In this document: positions 2,379 to 21,404 of the stretch, in pieces
How the letters are laid out: each line of letters begins with the position of its first letter
Numbering within the stretch: the first letter of the stretch is position 1
Origin: a virus
Reading direction: 5' to 3' (one strand)
Length of the DNA stretch: 21,984 nucleotides
IMG/VR virus record: IMGVR_UViG_3300029309_003600
Span: 1-21,984 of that record
Translations under genes and position numbers: made by a program
Notes under the pieces: model-generated
Databases searched by the model: none
Told to the model about the DNA's origin: nothing
What the model saw: the letters and a program-made list of their open reading frames with translations, nothing else

Positions 2379-3509
2379 TTAAGCGAGAGTGTGTCTCGCT
2401 TGAGATGACGTGACAATACCCGCATCGATGCAGGCGTCAACAAATTCTTGAGAAATTTTTTTCTTTTCTCCTTTTTCGGCTTTTTCACCGAGGGCTTTTG
2501 CAATTTTTGACAGGGGTAAGTTTGCAGATTCGATTACTTCTTCAGCGCTCATACCAAACTGTTCTGCTATGGCTACGAGTCCCATGTTGTCTTCTACTTT
2601 CTTTGGAGCCCCCATGCTTCTTAGACGTAAACTCGGAAACTCAACTCCATCTTTAGCCATGCCAATAGCTCTTTTCTTTAATTGATCCGCCCAGTTAGAA
2701 ACCATTTTTGCCACCAGCCACAGTTGCTCAATAACTTCAGGGTCTTCGACAGAGTTGATGTCAACATCTGGGAGCTCGGTATTGATCTTCTTTGCTACCG
2801 ATATGACTAAGCCCCCCAAAGCAGGACACGCATCTTCGTGTCGACAAAAGCGACAGTTTACTGTTGGCGTTAAATCAGAGAGTTCTGGAGTTCCTGTTTC
2901 CCATTTTGGTCTAACCTGTTCCCCCTTCTTAATTACCTCCGAAAGCTTGCGGACCAGCGCGGGAACATCAGCTCTTGTGAATTTGTAAAATAAAGTTTCG
3001 TTGCGAACGGGAACATAAAAAACAAATATGATCTCTTTAAGATCTTTGAATTTTTGAAAGGCCCCTACGGTGTATGCTTGCGCCTGCCAGTTTTTTTCTG
3101 GTGGGTCAATTATACTGATACCCGTTTTGTAATCGGCAAGAATACCTGTGTTATCATCAAACACCGTAAGACGGTCACAAGTCCCCCATGTTCCGGTGCC
3201 TTCTAATTCCACAGTAAGTTGAACTTCTTTAAAGTCTTCTTTCTGAGACCTCCCCGTTTGAGCATAGTTAGTTAAGAACGACTGTTCTTCTTCTACGATT
3301 TGATCAAAGATAGATATCTCTTCTTCGCTCTCAAGATTAGAGGTATCATTAACCTCTAACGCTTCGTGTATTCGAGTGCCTTTTTCAGCAGCCGCGCTAG
3401 TCCCTTCTCTTCCGTGATAGCCCGCGCATCCGGCAATATATTTAAGGGCGGACGGAGAAAACTCTGCATGATCTCTATCTGAGTGAGCGTCGGGCATAGC
3501 CTCGATCAT
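2379..3509 (-). CDS. Cas4/RecB-like PD-(D/E)XK nuclease with cysteine cluster (DUF2800-like)
   Basis: 376 residues. RecB/Cas4-family nuclease signs are H48 in GTRIHE, D112 in the strand before the core, D126-Y-K128 (ADYKTG, the catalytic D and ExK-type lysine) and the Q142/Q144 helix (WQAQAY). Four cysteines, C28 near the N-terminus and C219, C222 and C228 in CRFCRHEDAC, have the spacing of the Fe-S cluster of Cas4/AddB-type nucleases. The C-terminal ~130 residues are helical and unassigned. It probably resects DNA ends for recombination or degrades DNA during replication, together with the RuvC-like nuclease upstream and the SSB-like protein downstream. The ATG overlaps the upstream TGA (ATGA), so translation is coupled. 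A second possible start is Met5 at 3497; see the promoter at 3505-3532. Confidence 0.88.
   Translation of the reverse strand: MIEAMPDAHSDRDHAEFSPSALKYIAGCAGYHGREGTSAAAEKGTRIHEALEVNDTSNLESEEEISIFDQIVEEEQSFLTNYAQTGRSQKEDFKEVQLTVELEGTGTWGTCDRLTVFDDNTGILADYKTGISIIDPPEKNWQAQAYTVGAFQKFKDLKEIIFVFYVPVRNETLFYKFTRADVPALVRKLSEVIKKGEQVRPKWETGTPELSDLTPTVNCRFCRHEDACPALGGLVISVAKKINTELPDVDINSVEDPEVIEQLWLVAKMVSNWADQLKKRAIGMAKDGVEFPSLRLRSMGAPKKVEDNMGLVAIAEQFGMSAEEVIESANLPLSKIAKALGEKAEKGEKKKISQEFVDACIDAGIVTSSQARHTLA
2381..2401 (-). promoter_or_regulatory. Stem-loop at the end of the nuclease gene
   Basis: A perfect 8-bp stem (AAGCGAGA with TCTCGCTT) and a 5-nt loop overlap the stop codon of the Cas4-like nuclease. 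No T-run follows on either strand, so it is not a clear terminator. It may protect or separate the downstream mRNA that starts with the SSB-like gene. Confidence 0.45.
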
Positions 3510-3532
3510 ACACGATCTTTGCGACCTGTCAA
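3505..3532 (-). promoter_or_regulatory. Sigma70-like promoter overlapping the nuclease start
   Basis: On the minus strand TTGACA (3532-3527) is followed after 16 nt by TATGAT (3510-3505), 11 of 12 consensus bases. The -10 box covers the first ATG of the nuclease gene. A transcript would begin near 3498, immediately before Met5 at 3497, giving a leaderless or very short-leader mRNA. This would give internal transcription of the nuclease and replication genes apart from the upstream genes. Chance occurrence is possible. Confidence 0.45.
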
Positions 3533-4015
3533 AATATATTGAGCAATCAAGTAAGCGTCGATCATTCCGTCATGCGGAGTTCGACATCGTTTGTTTTTTA
3601 ACCAGTTCTCTTCAGGGGCCATTCTTTCAACAGTATTTAACGCCGCAACTTTAGACATTCCCTTTGGTATGTTACCTAACATTTTCTTTTGCCACTTATG
3701 AACCGACACTCTAAAGAGCTCAAAATCTTTTACTTCTGCCAGTCCAACAATCTTGCCAAAACTTAACGCCATTGATCTAACAGCTTGAGAACTTTTCGCG
3801 TGAGCGAGGGGTTCTTCTACAGCAAGGACAAACGGTGTATTAAGATTCATTAGCCAGTCATAAACTTTTTTTGCGTCAACCTCACGCTTCTTACTTAGAT
3901 GCTTACAGGGCATCGCTGTTTTACTAATTATCTTTCCGGAAAAAGTTGAGACCGCGCATAGGCCCCCATCAAGACCGTTATCGACGCCTACTATTATGTC
4001 GTGTTCTTCAGACAT
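3506..4015 (-). CDS. RuvC-like Holliday-junction resolvase / RNase H-fold nuclease
   Basis: 169 residues, the usual size for RuvC. The first strand reads IIVGVDNG with D12. The second acidic site is E67/E68 after a hydrophobic strand (FVLAVEEP). The last helix has HD149GMID153AYLIAQ. These match the RuvC layout of four acidic metal-binding residues on an RNase H fold. It would resolve branched DNA before packaging and act with the neighbouring Cas4-like nuclease. The start at 4015 lies within the previous gene (22-bp overlap) and the stop overlaps the next ATG. No Shine-Dalgarno sequence is seen, so coupling is likely. Confidence 0.85.
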   Translation of the reverse strand: MSEEHDIIVGVDNGLDGGLCAVSTFSGKIISKTAMPCKHLSKKREVDAKKVYDWLMNLNTPFVLAVEEPLAHAKSSQAVRSMALSFGKIVGLAEVKDFELFRVSVHKWQKKMLGNIPKGMSKVAALNTVERMAPEENWLKNKRCRTPHDGMIDAYLIAQYILTGRKDRV

Positions 4016-4242
4016 GACGGCGATATAATTAAGCCATTCCCATGCTCAGGAGTGAACACAAGATAATTTTTTGGGAGCGCTTGAATAAAAAATACTTCTC
4101 TTGCCGTCGATGGAACTACTCTGAAAAAAGTTCCTACTAAGGTTTTTCTAATAAAGACAAAATCATTTTTTGCACTTTCATCTTTTCTGATGAGCACCTT
4201 TGGGTTTACTTCTATCACTCGATTAAGGAAAAATTTTTCCAT
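3994..4242 (-). CDS. Small basic protein, unknown function
   Basis: 82 residues, beginning MEKFFLNRVIEVNPKVL. I do not recognise it. It is rich in Phe, Val and Lys with alternating hydrophobic residues, suggesting a small beta-rich fold. I chose ATG at 4242 because its A is shared with the TGA of the upstream gene (TGATG), with GGAG just before it. A longer in-frame reading from 4296 would overlap the upstream gene by 55 bases. It overlaps the RuvC-like gene by 22 bp. It belongs to the coupled minus-strand operon. Confidence 0.65.
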   Translation of the reverse strand: MEKFFLNRVIEVNPKVLIRKDESAKNDFVFIRKTLVGTFFRVVPSTAREVFFIQALPKNYLVFTPEHGNGLIISPSCLKNTT

Positions 4243-4604
4243 CACTCCAAAGAAGTAGAGTCTAAAAAACACGGAGTGCTTGGCCCAAGGTCGCAAGACA
4301 TTAACTGATCGAGAGCCATATCAATTTCTTCTTCGTTTAGTCCGTGTTTTTCTTTTAAAATCATTTTTGTGCCCGCAATAGAATAACAAGCAATCGAAGG
4401 GTTACTCGCATGTTCTACAACTCCGATGTAAGCGTCTTTAAGTTCGCTAAACATCAGCATACTTTTTTTCTTAAAAGATTTAGCGCCTTCTGAAAATCCT
4501 TCATAACAAGTAGGGTCGAGCTGCCTGTAAAAATAAGGATCATCTGAAGGATGATAATCGGCTCCTTCAAATTCAGGAGCTCCTGAATTAAAGTCAAAAA
4601 TCAT
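4242..4604 (-). CDS. Conserved-looking phage hypothetical protein
   Basis: 120 residues. The acidic, aromatic first 35 residues are followed by a helical part, and the protein ends with a helix (EEEIDMALDQLMSC) and 'GPSTPCFL'. That kind of ending recalls small hypothetical proteins I have seen next to phage terminase or resolvase genes, but I cannot assign a function. The ATG at 4604 overlaps the TAA of the putative small terminase (TAATG), and its TGA overlaps the next start (TGATG). It is therefore coupled on both sides and probably made in proportion to the small terminase. Confidence 0.7.
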   Translation of the reverse strand: MIFDFNSGAPEFEGADYHPSDDPYFYRQLDPTCYEGFSEGAKSFKKKSMLMFSELKDAYIGVVEHASNPSIACYSIAGTKMILKEKHGLNEEEIDMALDQLMSCDLGPSTPCFLDSTSLE

Positions 4605-5173
4605 TAATCTAAATCAATTACGGGTTTTACTGCGCCCTCTCCACGATCTGCTTTTGTGTTATTCAAAATAGAAATATCAATTTGCATTTTGCTACTCCCT
4701 CCTGACTTGGCGTTTAGCCCTAAGTTACGCCGAATAAATTGATCGAGCTCAGATAGTTCTCGCACAGTTTTTGCAGGGCGCAGATTTTTTACACTATCCC
4801 GCATTAACTTGATCCCCGTTGCAGCAGCGTAATGCTGATACTTGTCTGCGGGAGTTGATTGTCTCTCGGCTATTTCAAGTATCGCTTCGTCTTCTTCTGT
4901 CCGCGCATCGTGGCTTGCTCGGAGTATTGCTTCGTCCGTAGTAGAGTTCAGCTGGCTGTCAATAGCCTCGGCTAAATCATCTTGCTTTATTTCGTTTACT
5001 TCGGCAGGAGGATGGAGCCCGTTCTTTTTAGCCGGAATCCCCATCTTTTTAAACCACCTTCGCACCGTGCCGGGGTGAACTCCGAGCTCTTTAGCAATGG
5101 AAACAGTTTTCCAGTCTGCTTTATACATCGCCAGCGCACGTTGTTGGAGAGAATCTTTAGATTTGTCAGGCAC
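4604..5173 (-). CDS. terS: Putative terminase small subunit (HTH DNA-binding)
   Basis: 189 residues. Residues about 21-45 form a helix-turn-helix (WKTVSIAKELGVHPGTVRRW), the kind used by small terminases to bind the packaging site. The middle is acidic and helical. The C-terminal part has 'ELSELDQFIRRNLGL' (about 139-153) and 'MQIDISILNN', a pattern that recalls phage small terminases and fits binding to the large subunit. The start is GTG at 5173, without a clear Shine-Dalgarno sequence; the next methionine (residue 16) would fall just before the HTH. It is transcribed away from the large terminase, which starts 29 bases to the right on the other strand, an unusual arrangement because the two are normally codirectional. 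A transcription regulator is the main alternative, given the HTH next to a divergent promoter. Confidence 0.7.
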   Translation of the reverse strand: MPDKSKDSLQQRALAMYKADWKTVSIAKELGVHPGTVRRWFKKMGIPAKKNGLHPPAEVNEIKQDDLAEAIDSQLNSTTDEAILRASHDARTEEDEAILEIAERQSTPADKYQHYAAATGIKLMRDSVKNLRPAKTVRELSELDQFIRRNLGLNAKSGGSSKMQIDISILNNTKADRGEGAVKPVIDLD

Positions 5174-5191
5174 AGCAAGGGGTCGTATTGT
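5163..5191 (+). promoter_or_regulatory. Rightward sigma70-like promoter for the large terminase
   Basis: TTGTCA (5163-5168, 5 of 6), a 17-nt spacer and TATTGT (5186-5191, 4 of 6). Transcription would start near 5198, about 5 nt before ATG 5203, so the mRNA would be nearly leaderless. It lies back-to-back with the leftward promoter at 5200-5228. The two could not easily be used by polymerase at the same moment. Confidence 0.4.
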
Positions 5192-5199
5192 GTAAATTT

Positions 5200-5228
5200 A
5201 TTATGGCGGTAAGCAATCCTTCCATCAA
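5200..5228 (-). promoter_or_regulatory. Leftward sigma70-like promoter for the small-terminase operon
   Basis: On the minus strand TTGATG (5228-5223), a 17-nt spacer and CATAAT (5205-5200). The -10 box matches 5 of 6 bases and the -35 box 4 of 6. Start of transcription would be near 5193, about 20 nt before the GTG at 5173. The -10 box covers the ATG of the large terminase gene. Confidence 0.5.
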
Positions 5229-6990
5229 GCAGATACTCGAACCGAGGATTGACGCGAAAACAAAACGAATGGATGTCGGAGGGCTTTTGATCCCGCCTAC
5301 AAGTATTATTACCGCATTGTTGTATGGGTTTGCTCATCACGAACATCTTCGTGCTAAAGAGTATTACTTCTGGAGAATCTGCGACGAGTTGTGGAATCAC
5401 GATGATCTTCCTGAAAAGTTAATGATTCGTCATCCGTGGGCCGAACAAATGATTTGGGCGGCTTTGAATAACAAATATCTCGCAATTGGGGGGAGCGCTT
5501 CTTCCGGTAAGAGCCACACCATGGCCGCATGGGGGATTATTAACTGGTTGTCTCAGCCTAAAAACACGTTGGTTCTGATGACCTCAACTACGCTGCGTGA
5601 AGCACGCAAGCGGATCTGGGGATCGGTCATGTCGTTGCTGTCCGTGATTGACGGAGCACCAATCAAGATTCGGGATTCAATAGGAAACGCTGCTTACATT
5701 GACGAAAAGGGAACCCTTATCGAACGAGCAGGCATTTCACTTATTGCAGCTGAGAAATCAAAAACACGCGAGGCAGTCGGCAAGTTTATTGGTATCAAAC
5801 AAAAGAGAGTGATCTTGATCGGTGATGAGCTTTCTGAATTGTCAGAAGCTATCTTGCAAGCAGGGCTATCTAACTTGTCAAAAAACCCTGAGTTTCAACT
5901 GATTGGAATGTCTAACCCAAACAGTCGGTTTGATGCGTTCGGGATATGGTCGGAGCCTATCAACGGGTGGGATTCTATTGATACTAATAAAGATGACGGG
6001 TGGCCCACCAAATGGGGCGGAGATTACATCCGATTAGACGGAGAGCGTTCCCCCAACATTGTAGCCGGAGAAGTGCTTTACCCTTGGCTCCCTACTCAAG
6101 AAAAGATTGACGAAGATAAAGGGCTTCTTGGTCCTGAGTCACGCGGATATATGCGGATGGTCCGCGCTATCTTTTTTGATTCTGACGAAACTACGGGAAT
6201 ATACGGCGAAAACGAATTAACAATGAGCAAAGCCATGAACAAAGTTCAATGGCAAGGCAAACCAGTTTTAGTAGCCGGAGTTGACCCTGCGTTTACTAAC
6301 GGGGGCGACCGCACAATTTTATACACGGCTGCTGTGGGGTATGACACAACAGGTCAATACGTCATTGAGTTCGGTGATGCTGTTCATTTGAACGACGACG
6401 CTACCAATAAATCAGTCCCTCGGACGTATCAAATTGTAAGACAGATAAAAAATTATTGTGTTAAACACAACATCTCTGCTGAAAATGTCGCTGTGGATGC
6501 GACTGGAGCAGGGGCTCCTTTTTGTGACGTTCTTGCGGGAGAGTGGGCGAGTGGGTTTTTACGAGTAGGGTTTGGGGGCAAAGCTAGTGAGAAACGAGTT
6601 AGTGCTAATAGTCAGGCTATAGGCACCGAATTGTATGTAAATCGTGTTTCTGAGCTCTGGTTTGTAGGCAAAGAACTGATGCGGACTCGTCAAGTGTTTG
6701 GGGTGTCTGCAGATTTAGCGCGTGAAATAACGAGCCGAAACTATGACATGGTCAAAAGCGGAACCTTGAGGGTTAAGATTGAGACTAAGCCGGAGTTCAA
6801 AGCCCGCTTTGGCCGAAGCCCCGACCTCGCAGACGCTGCGTTTTTGGCCCTTGATTGTGCGCGTCAACGGATGGGGCTGGTAGCGGTAGATCCTCCAGAA
6901 AATTCTGCTAAAGGTCAGCCGTATCGAAGGACTACGATTAAACAGCTGGGGACTGCTTTACAGAATAGGGATGCAGTTTTGCTGGATTGA
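5203..6990 (+). CDS. terL: Terminase large subunit (packaging ATPase and nuclease)
   Basis: Motor that drives phage DNA into the prohead and cuts it. The frame is 595 residues from ATG 5203. An earlier TTG at 5188, five bases after AAGGGG, would add five residues; residue numbers below count from that TTG. Walker A is G101-x6-K108-S109 (GGSASSGKS) and Walker B is VILIGDE with D213/E214. A coupling-type motif MSNPNS follows at 241-246. The nuclease domain has the three acidic sites of the RNase H-like fold: D366 (AGVDPA), D437 (AVDATGAG) and D546/D549 (RSPDLADA). All catalytic residues are present, so it should be active. It opens the plus-strand block. A promoter overlaps its stop codon. Confidence 0.95.
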   Translation: MAVSNPSIKQILEPRIDAKTKRMDVGGLLIPPTSIITALLYGFAHHEHLRAKEYYFWRICDELWNHDDLPEKLMIRHPWAEQMIWAALNNKYLAIGGSASSGKSHTMAAWGIINWLSQPKNTLVLMTSTTLREARKRIWGSVMSLLSVIDGAPIKIRDSIGNAAYIDEKGTLIERAGISLIAAEKSKTREAVGKFIGIKQKRVILIGDELSELSEAILQAGLSNLSKNPEFQLIGMSNPNSRFDAFGIWSEPINGWDSIDTNKDDGWPTKWGGDYIRLDGERSPNIVAGEVLYPWLPTQEKIDEDKGLLGPESRGYMRMVRAIFFDSDETTGIYGENELTMSKAMNKVQWQGKPVLVAGVDPAFTNGGDRTILYTAAVGYDTTGQYVIEFGDAVHLNDDATNKSVPRTYQIVRQIKNYCVKHNISAENVAVDATGAGAPFCDVLAGEWASGFLRVGFGGKASEKRVSANSQAIGTELYVNRVSELWFVGKELMRTRQVFGVSADLAREITSRNYDMVKSGTLRVKIETKPEFKARFGRSPDLADAAFLALDCARQRMGLVAVDPPENSAKGQPYRRTTIKQLGTALQNRDAVLLD

Positions 6991-9665: not shown

Positions 9666-12600
9666 ATGTCTGAACAACCCGATACCCCTGCCTCCAACCC
9701 ACTCGCATTTTCCGAGTGGTCCGCTTCTAATGTGTTTGATGACCCGCTCGAAAGCAGGTTGCGATACGGAAATTATCTGCGAGAAGAATACATAAACGAG
9801 GGAGTTTATGATGCTAAAACAGAAGGGGAAATTCGTGCGGGATTTTCAAAGTCGTTAGTCAAAGGGGGGCTGTTGAATGAAGATGGCTCGAATCAAGAAG
9901 AGCTTGAAGAGCGTATTAATACGCTGCTACGTAAAGACGTAGCCGACGACACGCAGCTGCAAGATCAAGTGAATGCAGGAGAGTTGCCTATGGCGCGGCT
10001 CTCTACAGGGCAATTACTTGTTGGTGATGCGGCTGCTAATACAGATATTGTTTCTGCGATTAAGGCATCATCTTTTGGCGGGGTGAATATGTCAGACGCG
10101 CTCGCAGCGCAGGCGCAACTAGACACTCCCGACGGATTTGATGATATGCCGCTGTATAAAATACAGCGTGTTGCCAACGCGACCCGATTGTTACAAACAG
10201 AGCGCAAAAACAATACGGCTTTTGATATTCAGATTGATGGCTTGTCTACTGAAGCGGCCCAAAATGAGTATAGCACTCTTGATTGGCTTGAGCACAGTGC
10301 TGATGCAGCTGGAAGGGGCGTGGTAAATTTCTTTGCCAGAATTTTGGGTAGGGGAGATCAAGTCGACGAAGAAGAAAAAAGAAGGGACGCTTTAAAAGAA
10401 GCGCAAGGGGCCGACGTGTCGCAACTGGCTACTCAATATGCGATGAAGTTAGACCTAGCTCCTGAAGACACGCAAATGGCATTGGAGCAAATGATTCTGG
10501 AGAACGGGGTCAACAAAGGAATGTTTGAGCTTCATGATTTGGATGACAAAGACGTAGGCAAAAACCTTCGGATGGGTGGGTATGGCCTGCCTGTTATGTC
10601 CGCGCAAGCCATGGTCAATAAAGACCTGTTTGATGCTACGATTGCTGCTCACCCTGAGCTTAGTGAAGAAGTTAAAACTATGCTTAACAAGCAGAGAATA
10701 CAAGTTCTGCGCGGCGAGTTTACTAGCTTAGATAAATTCTTGTCAGGATCAAACGTATCGGATTCATGGAACACGGCGCTGGTTGCAGGTAGGTCGGCTG
10801 GGTTAGCGGATTACAAAATCCTTGAAGCGTTCGTTGCCGACGAAGATAACTACAACGAGTTTAAAGAACGCGCTGCAGGAATCGGAATGTCTTTCGTAAA
10901 CGGAGTAGGGCAGCTATTCGCGGCTATCCCCGCTGCTATGGGGTTTGAAGGAGCAAAAGATTACTTGGCGGATGTTGCTCAAAAGAATGCTGATCGAAGA
11001 CAACTAGCAGAAGTATTCGGGCAAGAATTTGGTTTGTTCCAAGATTTAGGAGAAACAGCATTCCCCATGCTCGTTGATATGGGGGCTACTGTTCTACTTT
11101 CTGTAGCAACCGCGCCTGCTGGTGGAGTCGGAGGTGTAGCTTATCTCGGCGCGAAGAGTGCGGGGACTGTGGGAGCTAGGCTTACGGCTAAAGGAATTGT
11201 TAAAGGTTTGACCAGCAGAACTCTGATGCGGACAACAGCAAAAGGAGCGGCAGATCAAGCGGACGATCTCATAAAAGACGGCATCATTAAAGGGTCTAAA
11301 GAAGGAGCTATTGACATCATCAAAGCGTATAACGGAAAAGTCGCACAGAGATTACGAAATGTTCCTGCTGTATTTGTTCCTGCAGCTACTCGTTCTGGGT
11401 CCGCTACATATGGTGCTGTTTACAATCAGCTCCAACAAAACCCCGACGTGTCTGCAGACGAGGCTCACGACAGAGCACTCGGTGCCGCTTTGATGGCGGG
11501 CACGTTTACGGGGATGCTCACGGGAGCGTTCTCTGCAATCGGTAAGGGAGGATTAGAAGATGCTCTACTAAAGGGGTTAAGCACAAAGCAAATGAATCGA
11601 GTTGCTCAGAGCATTACTGATCGATTCGAGGGAGACATGCTTAGCTCTGCTCGCAAAGCAATATCAAAAGCCATGAAAGATGCGGGCATGGTAAGCACTA
11701 TCAAAGGGCTCAAAGTCCCAGTTCTTAGTGAAGGCGCTGAAGAAGGTATCGACGAATTTGTTAATTCACTTATCACGGATGCTGCTCTTGATGAAGACAC
11801 TCCGATGATCGACCGGATTATGCAGGGGTTCCACGCCGCTCTTTTAGGTGGGATTATGGGCGGCTCTGTCCCATTGGTGCAGAGAGGGTTTAGAAGACTG
11901 CGCCCTGAAGCAGCGGTTATGCAAGAGAAGGCATCGTTCTTTGATGACATCCTTGAAAACATGACGGCTAATCTCAATGAGAGTGGCTCGCCGATTACCG
12001 CTGAAGTTATCAACGCTATTCTTACGGACCCTACTCGTAAAGATACACGCATGGCGGATGTTCCTACTGAAGAAGAGCAACGACAAATCTTAGAAGAAGA
12101 CGAACAAGATGTTGCTGAAGAAGGCGAAAGTCTTGGTTCTGGGATTAACCCAGATCCTGAGATGGAGGCTTTGTTGGATGAAAAGATAACTCCTGATAAT
12201 GTTCAAAAAGCAGTTGCCAGTGTTTTAGCAGAGGATGTTCCTACTATTGAAGGGGCCGACACTACTACTGTAGAAGCCAAAGGCGCGATGATGGAGCAGT
12301 TGAATCTTCCGTTGCAAGAGACAAGCGCGGCTGAAAACTCAGATCACTTAGCTGTGCGGGGATTGATAGGCGGTAGGAGAGTCACCCGTGAAGGAAGTCA
12401 GTTTGCGAAACGCTTACAGGACGCACGACCTGCTGAAGAAAACACTATCATCGACCCTGCGCGTAAAGCAGAAGCCGAACAAATCGAAGCTGCCTTTAGA
12501 GAAGAAGCAGCAAAGATTGATGAAGCCGCTGCCCTTTACAATAAACTAGAGCGTCAAGTCCAAGGGGCTGAAGACGCATCGGGAGCTTCCTCTTCAGTAA

Positions 12601-15600
12601 GGCGCGGATTGCAACAGCGCGTGTCAGAAGGCAAAGCCTTATCTCCAGAAAAAGCTACAGAGTTAAAAGGCGAGGCGTTTAAGAAACGAGTCCTTGCTTT
12701 AAAAGGGCTCAAGATAAAGACAAAAGTTGAGCTAGAAGAAGTTATCGAGTCTGAAGAAGAGACTCAATCGATAGAAAAAATTGCAAGTCATGGGTTTCCC
12801 CATGTGCTGAATGCAGCTAAGCTCAAAAAGCTAGGCGTTCCTGTAAACGAACGAACGGTCTCTAACACTTTCCTGAACGCGGCGAGCGACCGTATTGAAT
12901 CAGAAATCAACAATCGATTCCCCCGAATCAAACAATCAAAACCAAATGGCGGGTTTGCCATCGATTCTTTATACGGGAAGGGCAAAGTTTACATGGATCG
13001 ATTTGGGGTTGGTAAATTTGACAATGATCCTTTGAATATGCTCACCTTGTTAGAGATGGGCAACCCTGTTGTTGTAACTCCAGATCAACTAAACTCGTCT
13101 ACAATAAACCCCGCCTTTAGATTTACTCGGCTGGGAGATCAGGTAGTCGTATCCGATATCGTAGCCCCACAATCTGGAGGATTAGTCTCGGTGCTCACTC
13201 CAGCTACACGGGCAGTGAATATCCAGCCAGACTACACACGGTTAGTTAATCTCATAGATAGAGTTTCTGCTTTACGCAAAGAAGGACTGACCAATCCTGA
13301 TGAATTAGTCCCTTCTCCTTTTGACGAGGAGGCGCAGATTAGCAAAGCCGATCTGTTGCAGAGGTTAGAGACAAGCGCTTCTGTTGCTGAGTTTTTCCCC
13401 AGAGCAAGGCTGACAAACAACTTTGCTGAATCAGCGCTCATTGAGCTACGGCTCAGGGCGCAGGAATCATTGTTCACCGGAAAGAGAGTAGAACTCGTTT
13501 CATTAGGGCGAGAAGTTCAAGAGCTTTATGTCGATGAACAATTAGCTCGTTTAAGAGGAGTAAACGAAAGCTATCTTTCCACCGTCGAAGTCAGCCAAAC
13601 ATCAGCGCTTGCCGAAGACAACGAGTTTCGAGCCGACACAGAAGCGCAAGATAACTATACGCCCTTCCCTGAAAACGCTCCGGCACCATTTGCAGAGTCG
13701 CAAATAAAAAATGTGCTGCGGCAAACGCAAGCGGATGCTGTTGCAGCGGTAGATGGAGATATTGCTATTCGCAATAGCCTAATCAACTTACTCCGCAACG
13801 AAGCATTTGAAGGGGCCTCCCCTAACTTCGACAAGATGTCGGGGAAAAAACTATTCGACTTTACGCTGCAGTGGATGGCCCAAGGTAACAACCGCTCGAA
13901 TCGTTCGAGCCTAGAATTCCAACGAGCGTTGCGGGGTAACAGCTTTGAGTTGGCTGCTCCAATTAGAGAAGCCCTACAGGTCATGGGGCTATCCCCCGTT
14001 TCGCTAGAGGGGACACCCGACACAAACCCAGCATACAAAGAATTATTGCGGGCCAAACTAAGTGAAATGAAAGGAGGAGCTGTTCCTTCTGATAACGAAA
14101 TATCATCTTTTTACAATTACGTCAGGCGCTCCGTAGGCACATTGTTGCTACGGTCGCAACCTTTCTCCGGCGGCATAGGAATGCTGGACATGCTCAACGG
14201 TAACGCTGTTGAAGCGTTGGGATTAAAGAGTGGCGACTCCTCATCTATTGTAGAAGCGCTTGAAAGAATAGTTGGTGTATCTGATCGAGCTCAGAAAGAA
14301 TATGACTCGCATCTCGTAGCTATCGCACGGCTGTTGCTGCGCTCGCCAGACTTTCTTAATTCCATTGAGCTATCGATTGTTAAATCGAAGCTGCCTTTTG
14401 CTGGGACTTTCGATGTCCTCACCGATGGCACTCCTGCTATAACGATAAACATTCACGGGCATAATCCAAGAGGAGTTGCGGACACGTTGGTTCACGAATT
14501 AATCCACGCCTACGTCACGGGGATAACCCGCAAAGCGCCCGCTGAGCTAACTGTTCAAGAAGCTAACGCACTCAAAGGTTTAGAGAATGTTATTGGGGCA
14601 GTAAAAAAAGAATTCATCTCTCGTTCAAAAGCTGGAATGAGTTCCGCTATTTTGAGTGGTCCTTCATTCAAAGAAGCTGAAGGCGGGTATAAGTTTTATG
14701 ACTCCCGAGTATCCGACGCACTGCGAAATGTAGACGAGTTTGTAGCACACTTCTTGACCTCTACTGACTTCCAGAAGTTCGTTAAGTCGGTCCTCGCTAA
14801 TTCTACCTTAGAGACGCAGGCGATTAATCAAAATCAAACTTTGTTTGAGCGTATCATTACGGCCATACGGACTCTGTTCAAAGACTCCTCGGTAAAATTT
14901 GATGCTGCCTTTTCATCTGTGCTCGACCTGTCGCACGCTGCAGTGCTCACCAAACAAGGAGCTCGCAGAAAGAATAAGGATCTTATTAGCCTCAGTGATT
15001 TCAAGGCACTGTCAGATGTTTCATCGAAAGGTGCCAAAGACTTTATTGCAGATAAAGTATTCTCAGATACGCCCGCTACTAATGATACCGCAAGAAGAGA
15101 GCCGGTTACTGCCGATGCGATTGTGGGTAAAATCTCTGAAGATGTAAGCCGCGAACAACACGAAGCCGTTCGCTTGTCTTCGGGGCTGAACGAGACAACT
15201 TCGGAACAAACAGAGCTAGATCGCATACGCAAAAGAGATGTAAGCCGCGTTGTATCCTTTATTCAGAACTTCATTATCCCGCCAGAAATGCGGGTAGAGC
15301 TTGATCCAAACCATAAGGGGCTGGCTGACGTTAATAACAAGACGGGCGTAATGCGGATTAATCCAGTCCGCTTAACAAAACTGCTACACGATCTGAAGAT
15401 TCGTAATGGGGGCAACCCAGTATCTACACGGACTCAGATGAATATGCTGGCTGTGGTTTTGAACGAAGAGGTATCCCACGCTGCGTCAGTTGCTGTGATT
15501 ACTCGTGAAGATCAAGACGCCATCATTAATGAAATGACTCTAGCGCAAGCAGAGGAAGCTGTTAAAAACTACGGAGATGAGGGGAATGAAAGCGAGCGTG

Positions 15601-18600
15601 TTAGGTTAATCGAAGGGTGGAAACGTGGAGAACGTGATGCACAGGTAACAGTCATGGAAGAGTATCTGCGGATGTATTCCCAGAAAGTTACTCGCGGGTT
15701 CACCACAGAGGAGGAAGTGTCTTTCCTTCGACAGAACCCCAGCGCAATCAGCGTCGTCAAGCGCCACTTCAAGCGGTATGTAAACAAGCTGGGATTCTAT
15801 CGCTCCCGTAAAAACATCAGCCCGCAGCTTAGAACTGCAGTTGGACGAGTGGTCAACGAGATCAGAGCCATGGAATCAGGGTTCAGGTTAGGGTCAAACT
15901 TCAGGGCTTTCGATCCGAATGACCCCGAATCTGTAATCAACCTGTTCCGCAAACAAGCGGAGATGAACAAGCCGGTTGGTTCTCCTGAAGAAGAAGAGCG
16001 GAGCATGCCTGTCGCTGCTTCGGGCATATCTGCAGACATCCCAGCCGATGCGACTACTGTGCTCGACGGCGACGAATGGGAAAATGTCGGCCCCCAGCTG
16101 GGTTCAAACAAAGGAGGTCAATATGTAGATCCAGCTACCGGAGTTAAGTATTACTACAAAGAGAGCCAGACCCCTGACCATGCCCGAAACGAAGTTCTCG
16201 CTACAGTCCTGTATGAAACAGCAGGGGCCAAAGTAGTTCCCGTCCGCCTTACGAATCGAGAGGGTGAGCTGGGGACATCTTCTGTCTTCAGAGAAGACCT
16301 CAAAGAATTTGACCCTAAGAACGAGACGATGCGGAAAGCCGCATTCCCCGACTTCGCAGTTCATGCGCTGCTCGCTAACTGGGATGTGGTTGGTTTGGTT
16401 TACGACAACCTGATGGTTGACCCAGACGGTAATGTCGTCCACCTCGACACGGGCGGGGCGCTCAAGTTCAGGGCGCAGGGTGAGCCAAAAGGTGACGCAT
16501 GGAACGGTGGCGGTTCTGAGTTTTCTACGCTCAGGGTGATGGGCCAAGCGGGTGAAGTCTTCAAAGGCATGACCGAGCAGGATCTTCAGGACAGTGCTCG
16601 CAAGCTGCTTTCGTTAAGTAACGAAACTATTACTGAGGTAGTGCAGCAGGTTCTTGGCACTGACAACGATAGCCAAGAGATGATCAACACGCTCATCGAA
16701 AGAAGAGATAACATTCTTACGGCAGCATTTACTGACAAGGAGTTTTATTTAGAGAGTAAGGCTCTGGGTTCAGGGATCACGGAACAATCAACCGATGATC
16801 AAATAGCTAAAATGATTCCCGAGCTTCTCCCTGCTGGAGTGCTCGGCCCTATCCGTATGCGTAGCTCTAAGAGGGCCATGCTTCGAGAGAAAAAGCCTGT
16901 TGCTAGGAAAAATCTTTCCGCTGAAGAACGCGCAGAACTGAAAGAGCTGGGCGAACAGTATGCAAAGATCATCGACGATAATGCGGAAGAGATAATCAAA
17001 ATACAGAACACGCTAACTATCACGCCCGATATCGCGGATACGGTTCAACAGTTTCAGTATGTTGAGATGGAGAGCGAGGATGAAAGCGTTGAAAGCTATC
17101 TCGACGAAATTAAGAACGACTCGCCTAGTAAGCTGACAAAAGATAGAGCGGCTGGCATACCCCAATTCGGGGCAGACCGCCCCCGCTCAAAAGAAGGCAT
17201 AGGGTTCATGGCCCCTGAAATACCTACCGCGATAAGGAAACAACTCCAGCCTCTCGTCGACAGAGCCGCAGAGATCGCGGGGTATAACGTCCAAGCCAGC
17301 CATATTAGTCGAGATATTGTGACTGGGAAGGTTGTTCGTTACGTCCACGGCACCTCCGTGGCTGACGAGATGGGCGTTGCACAGTATGATACGTTTGATT
17401 CTTCAAAGTCAGACTATGCTGGGGCACCTCAAGGTAAGAGAGGACTTACCTTTTTTGGTAATACTAACACCATTTCTCGCGTTCAGAGCTTTATTGATAT
17501 GCAGGGGCATGGCTACGGAGAATCATATATTCCTATAGCGCTTAAAGATGATGCGAAGATTTTTGACCCGCGAGTAAACTTTGGCGAGTTCGAAGACACC
17601 ATCGAATTGGCGATGGCTTATAGAGAAGCAGGGTTTGAAAGAAGAGAGCATGCGGATAACCCTTACGCAGAGAGGCAAGTGTTGCTTAGATGGCGGGAGG
17701 ATTCACGATACAAAGAAACTATGAAGCGTGCCAAATATGGGCACTGGCAGGAGATGGAACATCCAGATGTCGTGGAGGCGATTATGGAAAAATACGACGG
17801 GATGCTCGTAACAGATGGAGTAGACGATGATTTTTTCATGGATTATAACACGGGCGAGATAGCCGATGAATATATGAACTTAGCTCTTCAAGATCCTAAC
17901 TTGGTGAAGAGCACGGCTCCGGTAACTTTTGGACCGGACAACCAAATCATCCCGCTCGAAGAAAGATTCAACCCTAACAGCGATAAGTTCCTCGAATCAG
18001 GAATCACCTTCGGTGACTCATCAGACCTGCCATCAGATTTCAATGGTGACGGCGTCGACTACAGCGACTTTGTAGGAGTGTTGGAAATGCCCATAGCTGA
18101 GAAGGGCGGGTTCAAGAACGTCAAGAACGGGTTCATGAAACTGTTCGTCGGCGAGACTGATCCTACAGTGCAAAGGTATGTGCGCCAGAGAGATGCCTTT
18201 GTCAGAACATCTGACGATATGGTCGAGGAGTATTACTCCAAATACAAAGCTGCCGTAGAGAAAGACTTCAAAGATCCCGATGAGATACCTTGGGATGTTA
18301 TCCAAACAGCTACAGGAACCACGGACAATATTGATCCCGATCCCGATAACACGTTACTGAAAGACAGAAACACGAAGCGGGATGCAGCTATGGTTGTTTA
18401 TCAGAATGATTTATCTTCTGAATACCAGAGGTTCGCGCAGGAGGAGGAAGCCGAAAAGATCAACATAAGAAAGACAGAACCCTCGAATGCTAAGCGGGCG
18501 GAACTTCTCAAACAAGCGGCGATAGATCGCAGGAAGAAAGAAGAGCAAGCCAAAGAAACCCTTGGGGCTACCAAGCAGGCGGCTTACGAAAAAGCGCAGG

Positions 18601-21404
18601 ACGAATACAAGGAAGCTAAAGACAAAGCCTTCGACATAAAGAAGGCGGAGTTTATCAGAGAACGCAACGAAGCCTTTGCTACTCTGAAAGACATCGCACC
18701 AAATCTGTTCCCCGTGATCCTCGATCTGCGGCGGCTCACAGATGAGCTATCAAAGTCGGCTAAGAATTTGTTCGGCGCATTCTCCAGCAAAGACCTGAGC
18801 GTTAAGTTCGATAACAATATGGGACTTTACGTTACGCGGAGATACCAGATGTTCTCCGATCCTGACTACAAAGAAAGGATTCTTACAAGTGAGGATGAAA
18901 GATCACGAGCTGTGCGTGATGCCGCTATTGATTTCATGCGCGAGCAATACATCGAGTTCGAGTTCCAGAATCAAAAGAAGCAAGGGCGCTCTGACTCAGA
19001 TGCCAAAGCGTTCGCTCGGGCTGAGTATGATAGGCAGGACAGTGACGGAGTTCCTCTCGGATTCAAAATGATATCTGAGTTTCTTAACTCGTATGACACC
19101 GAGTCGGGAACGGTTGACTTTGCTTCGGCCTTCGACTTCGCAGGTAAACCCGCAACGAAACAAGCGACTATGGGGGGAGCCCTCAAAGCGCTGACTAAGA
19201 ATCTCGAAGGACGGGCTGAGATTCCAAAGCCGCTTGCGGATCTTATGGGCGCAAACAATATTCCAGAAGACAGTCTGGACTCGCTGCTCTACACCTTCGG
19301 AACCGTTGCTAAGATCGCGGCGCATCAGAACTTCCTTGTGAAGATGCGAATGCAGGGTGAGCAGAATGGTTGGCTAATCAGCGCCAAGCAACACGCAGAA
19401 GATGTTAAAAATGCTAACACGGAAAAACAAATTGTCGAAGTAGGACAGCGAAGGTTGATCCAGCCGACCGGCTCTGACAGTGGGTTGAATCCGCTGGCTG
19501 GTTTGTATGTCGACAAAGATATCTATGAGTCAATCAAGCCCATGTTCCAGCAGACCGTGCGCCAACCAAATGACGCGGCGTCGAAGGTTCTTCAAGGGGG
19601 CTTGAGGTTTATGCAAAAAGCTACGGGTAATGCGATGGCAGCTAAGACTCTGGGCTCCGTTGGATTCTATATGCGTAACGCTTTGGGTAACGTGATGTTC
19701 TTTGGCCCCGCGCAAGGATACTTCGGGGCTCCGAAAGATTTGTTCTTAGGATCGTCCAAGCGCGGAACGGGCATGTCCGCAATGGAGGGAGTTATCAGAT
19801 CTTTCAAAGGAAGAAAGGCGGAAGCTAATGGATACCTTCGGAGCTTGGAAGCGCTTGGAGTATTCGGTGACGAAGTCCGCTCGGAGATCATGATGAAGCT
19901 GATGACGGGAGAGGAGACCTTCAACTCTCTCGACGAACAACTCGAAAGCCTCGCCAAGAAGTCAGAGAACTTGGTGGGTAAACCTCTTCGCGCGGCTCAA
20001 CAAACAGCGGCCCGCTTGGCCTCGGCAATGGATTCGTTCTACAAGATCGGATACTTCGAGAACGAATTAGCTACAGTTAAGAGGGCGGCTAAAGCAGAAA
20101 AAGATAATCCTAAGTTAGCCCGCAAGTTCTCTGCCATGACAGAGTTGCAGCAAAAAGAATATGCTGCCGACATTATTTCTGCCACGGCTCAGTCTTACGC
20201 TAGAGCCTTGCCGGTGATCAAGAAGCTCAGCGGATCTAGCGCAGGGCTTCTCATAGCTCCGTTTGTCCGGTTCACGTCGGAGGTTCCACGAATCACGGTG
20301 AACACCGTGCGGCAGTTCTCTAAAGAGATAGCTGACAGCAACCCCGTGATTAGAGCAAGGGGATACAAGAGAGCCGTAGGGTTCACGAGCGTCATGGCTG
20401 TGAGCACGGCGGTGCCAGTTCTGCTGGGCAAGTTCCTCTCAGGACTCGGAGAAGATGAGGACGAGGCATACCGTATGTCCCTTCCTCCTTATCTCAGAAA
20501 TCATACATTCTATTACTTCACGGAAAAGGCGGGCACGGCTTACGACTTTGCCAAGATGATCTCGGGCGGAAAAGATGGGGATGTTGTCACGCTTGACCTT
20601 ACCTACTTGAATCCATTCTCGGTGGTAGCTGATCCAATCTTGCGGGGAATGGAGCATGCTCTGAGAGGAGAACCGCTGCAGGCTACGACTAAGTTCCTCT
20701 ACACTGCTTTGTTCGAGCCATACCTCGGTGATCAGATCCTTGCCGGATCGGTGATTGATATCAAAGAGAATCGTGACGCGAGAACGGGCAGACCGATCTT
20801 TGAAGAGTCGGATCCTGCCGCCCTCAAAACAGGAAAGATGCTGACGTATATTGGTCGTGAAGCCTATGGCCCGCGCACTGTCTTGAAAGCTATCGAGGCT
20901 TATCAAGCGGCTGGCGGAAAGGTCACAAAGTTTGCTGACTCTCCCTTCGGCATAATCATGAGTGAGTTTTTACCAGTAAGGCCCCGCGCTAATGATCCAT
21001 CCGATCAGTTCTCAAGGGTAGCCTTCAGGCTCAGAGATGAGCAGCGGAGAGTGCAGCAGAGATTTGGTGAACTGAAGCAGAGCAAAGGAATGAGTGAGGG
21101 CTCCGTTCGTGGGGTGTATGAAGATGTCTTGAAGTCTCGCTTGAGGATAAACAATCGAATGGCCCAAGCTATGCGCGGGTTCCAAGGACTCGGCGTTACT
21201 AACTACAAGATTTACCAAGGGCTGCAGTCCGCTAACTACGGTGACCGCCGATCCAAGCTACTGTTCTCAGGGTTCATGGAGAACCCCGTGCCTACTAAAA
21301 ACTTGGTCGACTTCCTGATGCGCTCTCCCCAAGGGCAACAGAGATTGGGCTGGCTGATGCAGGCGCAGTCAGAGAACCCACGCTTCATCAAGCTGGAGGA
21401 TTAG
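9666..21404 (+). CDS. Giant (3,912-residue) polyvalent protein with zincin, kinase-like, ADP-ribosyltransferase-like and LPD38-like domains
   Basis: One uninterrupted frame of 11,739 bases. Approximate layout: 1-400 helical; 404-428, 468-500, 604-627 and 722-738 hydrophobic Gly/Ala-rich segments that may insert in or cross membranes; 800-1570 charged and helical with one unassigned compact part; 1576-1738 zincin with HELIH 1610-1614; 1860-2087 second zincin-like domain with degenerate EEVSH; 2132-2331 PI3K/HipA-like kinase; 2541-2775 ADP-ribosyltransferase-like; 2791-2801 DxNxDG loop; 2820-3050 charged coiled coil; 3311-3912 helical LPD38-like region with a hydrophobic segment at 3570-3595. 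Such combinations define phage polyvalent proteins, thought to be packaged and injected with the DNA. The start ATG 9666 has no Shine-Dalgarno sequence and follows a 31-nt gap. It is not an N4-type virion RNA polymerase: no RNA polymerase motifs are visible. Confidence 0.9.
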   Translation: MSEQPDTPASNPLAFSEWSASNVFDDPLESRLRYGNYLREEYINEGVYDAKTEGEIRAGFSKSLVKGGLLNEDGSNQEELEERINTLLRKDVADDTQLQDQVNAGELPMARLSTGQLLVGDAAANTDIVSAIKASSFGGVNMSDALAAQAQLDTPDGFDDMPLYKIQRVANATRLLQTERKNNTAFDIQIDGLSTEAAQNEYSTLDWLEHSADAAGRGVVNFFARILGRGDQVDEEEKRRDALKEAQGADVSQLATQYAMKLDLAPEDTQMALEQMILENGVNKGMFELHDLDDKDVGKNLRMGGYGLPVMSAQAMVNKDLFDATIAAHPELSEEVKTMLNKQRIQVLRGEFTSLDKFLSGSNVSDSWNTALVAGRSAGLADYKILEAFVADEDNYNEFKERAAGIGMSFVNGVGQLFAAIPAAMGFEGAKDYLADVAQKNADRRQLAEVFGQEFGLFQDLGETAFPMLVDMGATVLLSVATAPAGGVGGVAYLGAKSAGTVGARLTAKGIVKGLTSRTLMRTTAKGAADQADDLIKDGIIKGSKEGAIDIIKAYNGKVAQRLRNVPAVFVPAATRSGSATYGAVYNQLQQNPDVSADEAHDRALGAALMAGTFTGMLTGAFSAIGKGGLEDALLKGLSTKQMNRVAQSITDRFEGDMLSSARKAISKAMKDAGMVSTIKGLKVPVLSEGAEEGIDEFVNSLITDAALDEDTPMIDRIMQGFHAALLGGIMGGSVPLVQRGFRRLRPEAAVMQEKASFFDDILENMTANLNESGSPITAEVINAILTDPTRKDTRMADVPTEEEQRQILEEDEQDVAEEGESLGSGINPDPEMEALLDEKITPDNVQKAVASVLAEDVPTIEGADTTTVEAKGAMMEQLNLPLQETSAAENSDHLAVRGLIGGRRVTREGSQFAKRLQDARPAEENTIIDPARKAEAEQIEAAFREEAAKIDEAAALYNKLERQVQGAEDASGASSSVRRGLQQRVSEGKALSPEKATELKGEAFKKRVLALKGLKIKTKVELEEVIESEEETQSIEKIASHGFPHVLNAAKLKKLGVPVNERTVSNTFLNAASDRIESEINNRFPRIKQSKPNGGFAIDSLYGKGKVYMDRFGVGKFDNDPLNMLTLLEMGNPVVVTPDQLNSSTINPAFRFTRLGDQVVVSDIVAPQSGGLVSVLTPATRAVNIQPDYTRLVNLIDRVSALRKEGLTNPDELVPSPFDEEAQISKADLLQRLETSASVAEFFPRARLTNNFAESALIELRLRAQESLFTGKRVELVSLGREVQELYVDEQLARLRGVNESYLSTVEVSQTSALAEDNEFRADTEAQDNYTPFPENAPAPFAESQIKNVLRQTQADAVAAVDGDIAIRNSLINLLRNEAFEGASPNFDKMSGKKLFDFTLQWMAQGNNRSNRSSLEFQRALRGNSFELAAPIREALQVMGLSPVSLEGTPDTNPAYKELLRAKLSEMKGGAVPSDNEISSFYNYVRRSVGTLLLRSQPFSGGIGMLDMLNGNAVEALGLKSGDSSSIVEALERIVGVSDRAQKEYDSHLVAIARLLLRSPDFLNSIELSIVKSKLPFAGTFDVLTDGTPAITINIHGHNPRGVADTLVHELIHAYVTGITRKAPAELTVQEANALKGLENVIGAVKKEFISRSKAGMSSAILSGPSFKEAEGGYKFYDSRVSDALRNVDEFVAHFLTSTDFQKFVKSVLANSTLETQAINQNQTLFERIITAIRTLFKDSSVKFDAAFSSVLDLSHAAVLTKQGARRKNKDLISLSDFKALSDVSSKGAKDFIADKVFSDTPATNDTARREPVTADAIVGKISEDVSREQHEAVRLSSGLNETTSEQTELDRIRKRDVSRVVSFIQNFIIPPEMRVELDPNHKGLADVNNKTGVMRINPVRLTKLLHDLKIRNGGNPVSTRTQMNMLAVVLNEEVSHAASVAVITREDQDAIINEMTLAQAEEAVKNYGDEGNESERVRLIEGWKRGERDAQVTVMEEYLRMYSQKVTRGFTTEEEVSFLRQNPSAISVVKRHFKRYVNKLGFYRSRKNISPQLRTAVGRVVNEIRAMESGFRLGSNFRAFDPNDPESVINLFRKQAEMNKPVGSPEEEERSMPVAASGISADIPADATTVLDGDEWENVGPQLGSNKGGQYVDPATGVKYYYKESQTPDHARNEVLATVLYETAGAKVVPVRLTNREGELGTSSVFREDLKEFDPKNETMRKAAFPDFAVHALLANWDVVGLVYDNLMVDPDGNVVHLDTGGALKFRAQGEPKGDAWNGGGSEFSTLRVMGQAGEVFKGMTEQDLQDSARKLLSLSNETITEVVQQVLGTDNDSQEMINTLIERRDNILTAAFTDKEFYLESKALGSGITEQSTDDQIAKMIPELLPAGVLGPIRMRSSKRAMLREKKPVARKNLSAEERAELKELGEQYAKIIDDNAEEIIKIQNTLTITPDIADTVQQFQYVEMESEDESVESYLDEIKNDSPSKLTKDRAAGIPQFGADRPRSKEGIGFMAPEIPTAIRKQLQPLVDRAAEIAGYNVQASHISRDIVTGKVVRYVHGTSVADEMGVAQYDTFDSSKSDYAGAPQGKRGLTFFGNTNTISRVQSFIDMQGHGYGESYIPIALKDDAKIFDPRVNFGEFEDTIELAMAYREAGFERREHADNPYAERQVLLRWREDSRYKETMKRAKYGHWQEMEHPDVVEAIMEKYDGMLVTDGVDDDFFMDYNTGEIADEYMNLALQDPNLVKSTAPVTFGPDNQIIPLEERFNPNSDKFLESGITFGDSSDLPSDFNGDGVDYSDFVGVLEMPIAEKGGFKNVKNGFMKLFVGETDPTVQRYVRQRDAFVRTSDDMVEEYYSKYKAAVEKDFKDPDEIPWDVIQTATGTTDNIDPDPDNTLLKDRNTKRDAAMVVYQNDLSSEYQRFAQEEEAEKINIRKTEPSNAKRAELLKQAAIDRRKKEEQAKETLGATKQAAYEKAQDEYKEAKDKAFDIKKAEFIRERNEAFATLKDIAPNLFPVILDLRRLTDELSKSAKNLFGAFSSKDLSVKFDNNMGLYVTRRYQMFSDPDYKERILTSEDERSRAVRDAAIDFMREQYIEFEFQNQKKQGRSDSDAKAFARAEYDRQDSDGVPLGFKMISEFLNSYDTESGTVDFASAFDFAGKPATKQATMGGALKALTKNLEGRAEIPKPLADLMGANNIPEDSLDSLLYTFGTVAKIAAHQNFLVKMRMQGEQNGWLISAKQHAEDVKNANTEKQIVEVGQRRLIQPTGSDSGLNPLAGLYVDKDIYESIKPMFQQTVRQPNDAASKVLQGGLRFMQKATGNAMAAKTLGSVGFYMRNALGNVMFFGPAQGYFGAPKDLFLGSSKRGTGMSAMEGVIRSFKGRKAEANGYLRSLEALGVFGDEVRSEIMMKLMTGEETFNSLDEQLESLAKKSENLVGKPLRAAQQTAARLASAMDSFYKIGYFENELATVKRAAKAEKDNPKLARKFSAMTELQQKEYAADIISATAQSYARALPVIKKLSGSSAGLLIAPFVRFTSEVPRITVNTVRQFSKEIADSNPVIRARGYKRAVGFTSVMAVSTAVPVLLGKFLSGLGEDEDEAYRMSLPPYLRNHTFYYFTEKAGTAYDFAKMISGGKDGDVVTLDLTYLNPFSVVADPILRGMEHALRGEPLQATTKFLYTALFEPYLGDQILAGSVIDIKENRDARTGRPIFEESDPAALKTGKMLTYIGREAYGPRTVLKAIEAYQAAGGKVTKFADSPFGIIMSEFLPVRPRANDPSDQFSRVAFRLRDEQRRVQQRFGELKQSKGMSEGSVRGVYEDVLKSRLRINNRMAQAMRGFQGLGVTNYKIYQGLQSANYGDRRSKLLFSGFMENPVPTKNLVDFLMRSPQGQQRLGWLMQAQSENPRFIKLED
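14391..14879 (+). other. Domain of the giant protein: zincin metallopeptidase, active-site complete
   Basis: Residues 1576-1738. HELIHAY places H1610 and H1614 as zinc ligands and E1611 as catalytic base. Downstream, 'NVDEFVAHFLTS' provides E1691 as the likely third ligand, as in PolyVal-type zincins where a helix with E follows the HExxH helix. The preceding strand (ITINIHGHN) fits the edge strand of the fold. It may mature the giant protein or cleave host proteins; the sequence does not say which. Confidence 0.75.
15243..15926 (+). other. Domain of the giant protein: second zincin-like domain, first zinc ligand lost
   Basis: Residues 1860-2087. A strand ending in 'GVMRINPVRL' is followed by a helix carrying LNEEVSHA (1932-1939). 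This aligns with HExxH as E1934-E1935-x-x-H1938, so the first His is Glu. 'VMEEYLRMYSQ' further on could supply the third acidic ligand. It is probably a decayed or binding-only copy, or a zincin with altered metal binding. The assignment rests on pattern alone. Confidence 0.4.
16059..16658 (+). other. Domain of the giant protein: PI3K/HipA-like kinase
   Basis: Residues 2132-2331. The glycine-rich 'GSNKGGQY' (2146-2153) is followed by a strand with K2165 (YYYK), the expected ATP-binding lysine, and by E2176 in the next helix. The catalytic loop reads N2238-W-D2240-x6-D2247-N2248. 'LDTGGAL' (D2261) matches the metal-binding DxG segment. This motif series is familiar from phage and effector kinases of the PI3K/actin-fragmin kinase/HipA superfamily. 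All expected residues are kept, so activity is plausible. The substrate is unknown. Confidence 0.7.
17286..17990 (+). other. Domain of the giant protein: ADP-ribosyltransferase-like (ART-PolyVal type)
   Basis: Residues 2541-2775. 'RYVHGTS' (H2561-G2562) fits the first NAD-binding motif of ART folds. It is followed by 'GLTFFGNT' and then 'YIPIALK', and the domain closes with 'NQIIPLEERFNPNSDKF' (N2769), much like the end of phage polyvalent ADP-ribosyltransferases. Which residue is the catalytic acid is not clear from sequence alone. Target unknown; phage ARTs often modify host transcription or translation proteins. Confidence 0.6.
19596..21404 (+). other. Domain of the giant protein: helical C-terminal region, LPD38-like
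   Basis: Residues 3311-3912. Helical with 'FYMRNALGNVMF', 'MDSFYKIGYFENEL' and 'IAPFVRFTSEVPRI', patterns typical of the large polyvalent protein-associated domain LPD38. A hydrophobic segment at about 3570-3595 (VGFTSVMAVSTAVPVLLG) could be membrane-inserting. In this protein class the C-terminal region is thought to serve packaging or delivery rather than catalysis. Confidence 0.55.

Follow-up and report, generated by a model that had tools for sequence, protein, structure and literature searches.

In nearly every tailed phage the two terminase genes are adjacent and lie on one strand, the available part of one description naming Yersinia phage PY100 as an exception (PMC3488191), while the accessible text of another source treats adjacency of the small (TerS) and large (TerL) subunit genes as typical, not universal (PMC9611059). 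In phage lambda, according to the available portion of PMC9026076, TerS binds TerL via its C-terminus and the TerS-binding domain of TerL lies within the N-terminal domain of that protein. The premise of the initial annotation of the DNA studied here, that side-by-side terminase genes on one strand are the norm, thus agrees with what PMC3488191 states in its accessible part.

The window analysed here is the entire IMG/VR record IMGVR_UViG_3300029309_003600, a stretch of 21,984 bases that is classed as linear. Its terminase locus contains the following features:

4604-5173, minus strand: ORF for an HTH protein of 189 residues, starting at GTG 5173; start conserved; most likely TerS
5174-5202, no strand: gap of 29 nt separating both start codons, read from the sequence
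5203-6990, plus strand: TerL gene, 595 residues, starting at ATG 5203; match to PHROG 2 (E 1.2e-17); start conserved

The pair on opposite strands had been proposed beforehand, and both ORFs are present as described. A comparison of starts indicates that relatives share ATG 5203 as the TerL start rather than the upstream TTG 5188, and across the same relatives the HTH gene begins with GTG, TTG or ATG at or near the position of 5173. In the first locus set (161 loci) the aligned gene starts are 27-118 nt apart.

The divergent arrangement of HTH gene and TerL was found in 160 of the 161 loci of this first set, the window's own included, the sole exception (L078) being a locus where the contig end leaves 77 bases before TerL. 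The locus sets consist of the best 80 of 118, 309, 473, 84 and 488 relatives, and since only the best 80 per search were kept, distant members of the lineage may differ in layout. Among 384 pooled loci all 345 complete pairs, defined as a TerL of at least 560 residues together with a complete HTH-protein match, are divergent; the remainder comprise 32 loci without a complete TerL, 6 with TerL but lacking a complete HTH-protein ORF, and 1 with a short TerL. Many of these 384 loci are repeats of one contig, and the set has 134 distinct TerL cores. The divergence is nonetheless far beyond chance. The HTH gene adjoins TerL, as a TerS gene is expected to, in the same 160 loci and 345 complete pairs, and the usual order, with TerS first and on the strand of TerL, occurs in none of these complete pairs. 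Our data therefore show an HTH gene that is stably inverted relative to TerL across a repeatedly sampled lineage of uncultivated phages.

The PHROG 2 match of TerL is to the terminase large subunit family and covers residues 82-564, in keeping with the large-subunit identity first assigned to it; no Pfam match was found at E 1. Against cultured phages a search limited to 1e-5 returned no match and one limited to 10 returned 20 records, the best being the TerL of Streptomyces phage Marky (23%, E 1e-6), a value at odds with the null result at 1e-5. TerS is absent from the annotations of Marky and PTXU04, and in Chambord one strand carries both terminase genes.

The two genes open onto different sides of the genome. 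Three relatives, 61, 67 and 68 kb long, have the HTH gene at the head of a replication-gene run, and in them TerL leads a run whose last member is a giant ORF (5134, 4448 and 4274 residues). In the relative G001 the replication run continues into a DNA polymerase and a primase-like protein. The window's genes on this side are:

2379-3509, minus strand: exonuclease, PHROG 69 (E 1.1e-32); same run as the HTH gene
3506-4015, minus strand: RuvC-like resolvase, PHROG 1770 (E 1e-10); same run as the HTH gene
4242-4604, minus strand: gene of 120 residues adjoining the 3' end of the HTH gene, unreplaced in the L309/L310 swap described below and used as a linkage control

On the other side, an ORF of 3912 residues at 9666-21404 of the window occupies the same place as the giant ORFs of the relatives and has no Pfam match above cut-off. 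In a presumed structural block of G001 (40001-60000) several large proteins, for example of 738, 643 and 439 residues, lack a PHROG match at E 0.05. Of 13 window genes only 1 is preceded, within 20 nt of its start, by a Shine-Dalgarno-like stretch, and the host may not rely on such sites. Four contigs of this lineage (L393-L396) were binned with metagenome-assembled genomes of three unrelated taxa, two with Opitutae and one each with Blastopirellula and Altibacter; at least some of these bins are probably contaminated, which makes them unusable for naming a host.

Because the HTH gene and TerL head different runs, each run would need a start signal in or beside the 29-nt gap, so that the two transcripts would probably begin within a few bases of each other and compete. 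Two candidate signals were predicted:

5163-5191, plus strand: predicted promoter toward TerL, TTGTCA (5163-5168), 17 nt, TATTGT (5186-5191); consensus match only
5200-5228, minus strand: predicted promoter toward the HTH gene, TTGATG (5228-5223), 17 nt, CATAAT (5205-5200); consensus match only

The initial annotation had described these as overlapping, back-to-back promoters with -10 boxes within 20 bp, and as far as the letters go this holds: both pairs of hexamers are there, and the minus-strand -10 box includes the TerL start codon. As promoters they fare less well, being at chance level in the window, where a scan of 3.5 kb gave 4 sites against 3.8 expected from shuffles. When 85 non-identical homologous junctions were compared with shuffled versions, 32 had a pair on the plus strand (shuffle mean 7.2), 33 had one on the minus strand (6.7) and 7 had both (0.9). 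Independent support is overstated by this enrichment, given the kinship of the loci and the partial overlap of the hexamers with conserved codons. It is close to an even call, leaning slightly against, that the predicted overlapping promoters are a product of chance and that both runs start elsewhere or with a non-sigma-70 signal. The local count, the few junctions with both directions and the overlap of hexamers with codons all point that way; on the other hand, the matches in either direction exceed the shuffle means 4 to 5 fold across the 85 junctions, with hexamers that differ by clade, and a pair of runs that part from a gap of 29 nt must have start signals nearby. We therefore consider the promoters plausible only. 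If both were real, transcription would start near 5198 on the plus strand, giving an almost leaderless transcript, and near 5193 on the minus strand, so that two polymerases could hardly sit there together.

A dyad of the form TAATC-N5 to 12-GATTA was also observed in 12 of the 85 junctions (shuffle mean 0.12), all of them from close relatives (L005, L006, L008-L011, L081, L082, L085, L088, L089 and L096); the window and the other 73 junctions lack it.

Two parts of the HTH protein stand out:

5039-5143, minus strand: HTH, residues 11-45; Pfam HTH_23, 29.8 bits against a cut-off of 24.6; three model helices, residues 5-43
4658-4687, minus strand: C-terminal tail motif MQIDISILNN, residues 163-172, conserved; candidate TerL-binding tail

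An N-terminal DNA-binding HTH, as expected of a TerS, is supported by both the HTH_23 score and the model helices. The AlphaFold2 model (mean pLDDT 67.8) places after the HTH the helices 64-103, 108-127 and 137-150 and a disordered tail; a model of the core only reached a pLDDT of 56.5, too poor for a fold search. Within 41 homologues 27 residues are invariant, 4 in the HTH and 23 in core and tail, the latter including I165, D166, I167 and I169-N172 of the tail motif, whose candidate role in TerL binding is suggested by analogy with lambda and P22 TerS as described in the available text of PMC9026076.

Beyond the HTH no similarity was found in PHROGs, Pfam, PDB sequences or INPHARED (residues 60-189 are without a PHROG match and residues 64-189 without a Pfam match), and in fold searches the model aligns only in the HTH, to regulators, transposases and others alike, with no TerS among the top 50 PDB matches listed by either program. 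A structural match to an unrelated regulator had been named beforehand as another way to overturn the small-subunit assignment; an alignment confined to the HTH and shared by regulators and other proteins does not distinguish the two. Two BFVD matches named terminase small subunit (E 0.044 and 0.14, TM near 0.2) were unusable, and a weak match to Mx8 p21 (26%, E 0.7), a protein sited among replication genes, was likewise set aside.

Such a profile has to be weighed against the possibility that the HTH protein is instead a regulator at a divergent early/late promoter, switching between replication and TerL genes, with the real TerS unrecognised elsewhere or absent. Its gene stands first in the replication run, beside the divergent promoter region; regulators are among the protein's best PHROG matches and are frequent among the structural neighbours of its HTH; and the dyad of the 12 junctions is a candidate operator, while its absence from the window and 73 junctions speaks against it. 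The most conserved parts, moreover, are the core and tail and not the HTH. We consider a regulator of this kind unlikely.

A second TerS elsewhere in the genome had been named in advance as the finding that would overturn the small-subunit assignment. None appeared among 40 of the 58 ORFs of G001 (PHROGs, E up to 0.05; the giant ORF and 17 others lay outside this set), and the same search of the same ORFs gave no RNA polymerase; another TerS could have been missed, TerS being strongly divergent. By profile, each of 22 related contigs (12/12 and 10/10), which may be incomplete, carries one copy of the HTH-protein gene, and what look like two copies in G012 are two pieces of one HTH-protein gene. 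PHROG 57 was tried as a TerS probe and rejected as unspecific, because it matched all 14 control genomes; among relatives it matched 2 of 12, both times within the HTH gene.

The evidence that carries the TerS reading comes from changes shared between the HTH protein and the N-terminus of TerL. Correlations were computed from 85 exactly non-redundant loci, reduced to 76 with neighbour and RuvC genes, to 49 without near-duplicates and to 48 without L310. With overall TerL divergence removed, HTH-protein distance correlates with that of TerL residues 1-45 at r 0.71 and with that of residues 46-90 at 0.43 (49 loci), against -0.26 to 0.18 for later TerL segments and 0.16 for RuvC. Within 38 close loci the correlation with TerL 1-45 falls to 0.01-0.29, with its maximum in the tail; in this set the HTH part tracks the neighbour gene (r 0.64) more closely than it tracks TerL. 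The neighbour-gene control over 49 loci held non-homologous genes (mean distance 0.68), and its repeat used the 43 homologues among 48. The signal thus consists of a few deep events rather than a continuous trend.

These correlations cannot separate an interface from hitchhiking, that is, from a situation in which the HTH protein is TerS and the shared change arises from recombination tracts running into the 5' end of TerL, with no interface at residues 12-47. The two genes are adjacent, and every part of the HTH protein correlates alike with TerL 1-45, both of which suit hitchhiking. Since the correlation is much weaker in the close set, we relied on matched comparisons, which single out one segment:

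5236-5343, plus strand: TerL residues 12-47, co-changing with the HTH protein; candidate TerS-binding segment, from matched comparisons

In L309-L311 a different, double-HTH protein occupies the same divergent slot (L309:939-1565, L310:2605-3273). The TerL N-terminus of L309 and L310/L311 shares 6-8 of 41 residues with that of L306/L308, whereas later blocks of 50 residues are 64-98% identical. Between L309 and L310 themselves identity is 428/470 over TerL 91-560, 12/36 over TerL 12-47 and 28/95 over the HTH-protein core and tail. In L309/L310 the replacement extends without a break across the HTH gene, from its 3' end up to roughly codon 45 of TerL, as hitchhiking would have it, but the gene adjoining that 3' end is not replaced.

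L068 gives a second case. Against L045 it is identical at 422/470 positions of TerL 91-560, 33/43 of 48-90, 17/36 of 12-47 and 6/11 of 1-11, while five comparators against the same L045 range over 414-426, 31-39, 30-33 and 6-8, respectively, so that TerL 12-47 is the sole segment out of line (Fisher p 1.2e-7; the pooled comparators used for this test all share L045 and are hence not independent). Residues 1-11, which lie nearest the HTH gene and nearest any operator in the gap, are no more diverged in L068 than in the comparators. Small as these numbers are, this pattern argues against both hitchhiking and a regulator. In the TerL tree the L309 clade does not group with L068/L069, and both changes stop before residue 48. 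Further versions of the HTH protein occur in L321/L322 and L323.

Scoring of the 134 cores against a consensus, with a cut at 0.4 and TerL 9-45 compared with the HTH-protein core, gave 5 with both low, 0 with TerL alone, 5 with the HTH-protein core alone and 124 with neither. The five with the core alone are L068 and L069, whose TerL lies just above the cut at 0.43-0.46, and L305, L306 and L308, in which the core is strongly changed and the TerL N-terminus scores no lower than in neighbours. The latter three are a partial exception and count against strict coupling, although compared with L338 they retain 19/36 residues of TerL 12-47 while L303 retains 26/36. Drastic changes of the HTH protein are usually accompanied by change in TerL 12-47 and not in TerL 91-560. 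Few lineages carry the co-change, and adjacent genes that are inherited together could look as if they shared an interface. An interface is favoured by L068, where TerL 1-11 is spared, and by L309/L310, where the neighbour gene is unreplaced, and we regard hitchhiking as a real if less probable explanation.

Taken together, we consider it likely that this lineage of phages has the HTH protein as its small terminase, encoded by a gene stably inverted relative to TerL. This small-subunit assignment, already made in the initial annotation, now has comparative support from the co-change with TerL 12-47 and not from similarity. By analogy with known TerS proteins, it would oligomerise via its conserved helical core, use the N-terminal HTH to bind the packaging site and recruit TerL with its C-terminal tail (IDISILNN) at the N-terminal segment of TerL. 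TerS might also bind the 29-nt junction, shut its own replication-side promoter, free or drive the TerL side and mark the packaging start, a ring-forming protein thereby timing the passage from replication to packaging. This is speculative and in our view quite improbable, but the lineage makes a small terminase doubling as a replication/packaging switch a directly testable question. For annotators, such HTH genes are not to be called regulators by position alone. The natural swaps also suggest that TerS partners with TerL 12-47; for lambda, the accessible text of PMC9026076 calls this interaction molecularly unknown.

In the literature searched, largely outside subscription papers, we found no description of TerS and TerL genes that are both adjacent and divergent. 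The comparisons that follow draw on those parts of the cited papers that were available. Sulfitobacter phage PhiGT1 offers a parallel in method, its TerS having been assigned by constant linkage to TerL and without similarity to characterised TerS proteins, but there TerS is always upstream of TerL and the available text mentions no divergent layout (PMC10386132). The Bcep22-like podovirus JC1, compared by description, resembles our relatives in its genome of about 61 kb, a TerS displaced from TerL and a DarB-like protein among the late genes, yet its TerS and TerL lie on one strand, several genes apart (PMC9144972). In Pseudomonas phage E217 TerS likewise does not precede TerL in an operon, but is located about 58 kb away (PMC9611059). 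Yersinia phage PY100 shares with this locus TerS and TerL genes on opposite strands, which there are widely separated (ORF2 and ORF18) and here are 29 nt apart (PMC3488191). With lambda, P22 and SPP1 the lineage has in common adjacent genes, a TerS-sized HTH protein beside TerL and, as predicted by the model, the order of HTH, helical core and flexible tail (PMC9026076, PMC4669245); in contrast to these phages, the pair is divergent here in every complete case and the HTH gene heads the replication run, which indicates that a whole phage lineage can stably keep its terminase genes in an inverted form of the usual TerS-TerL operon.
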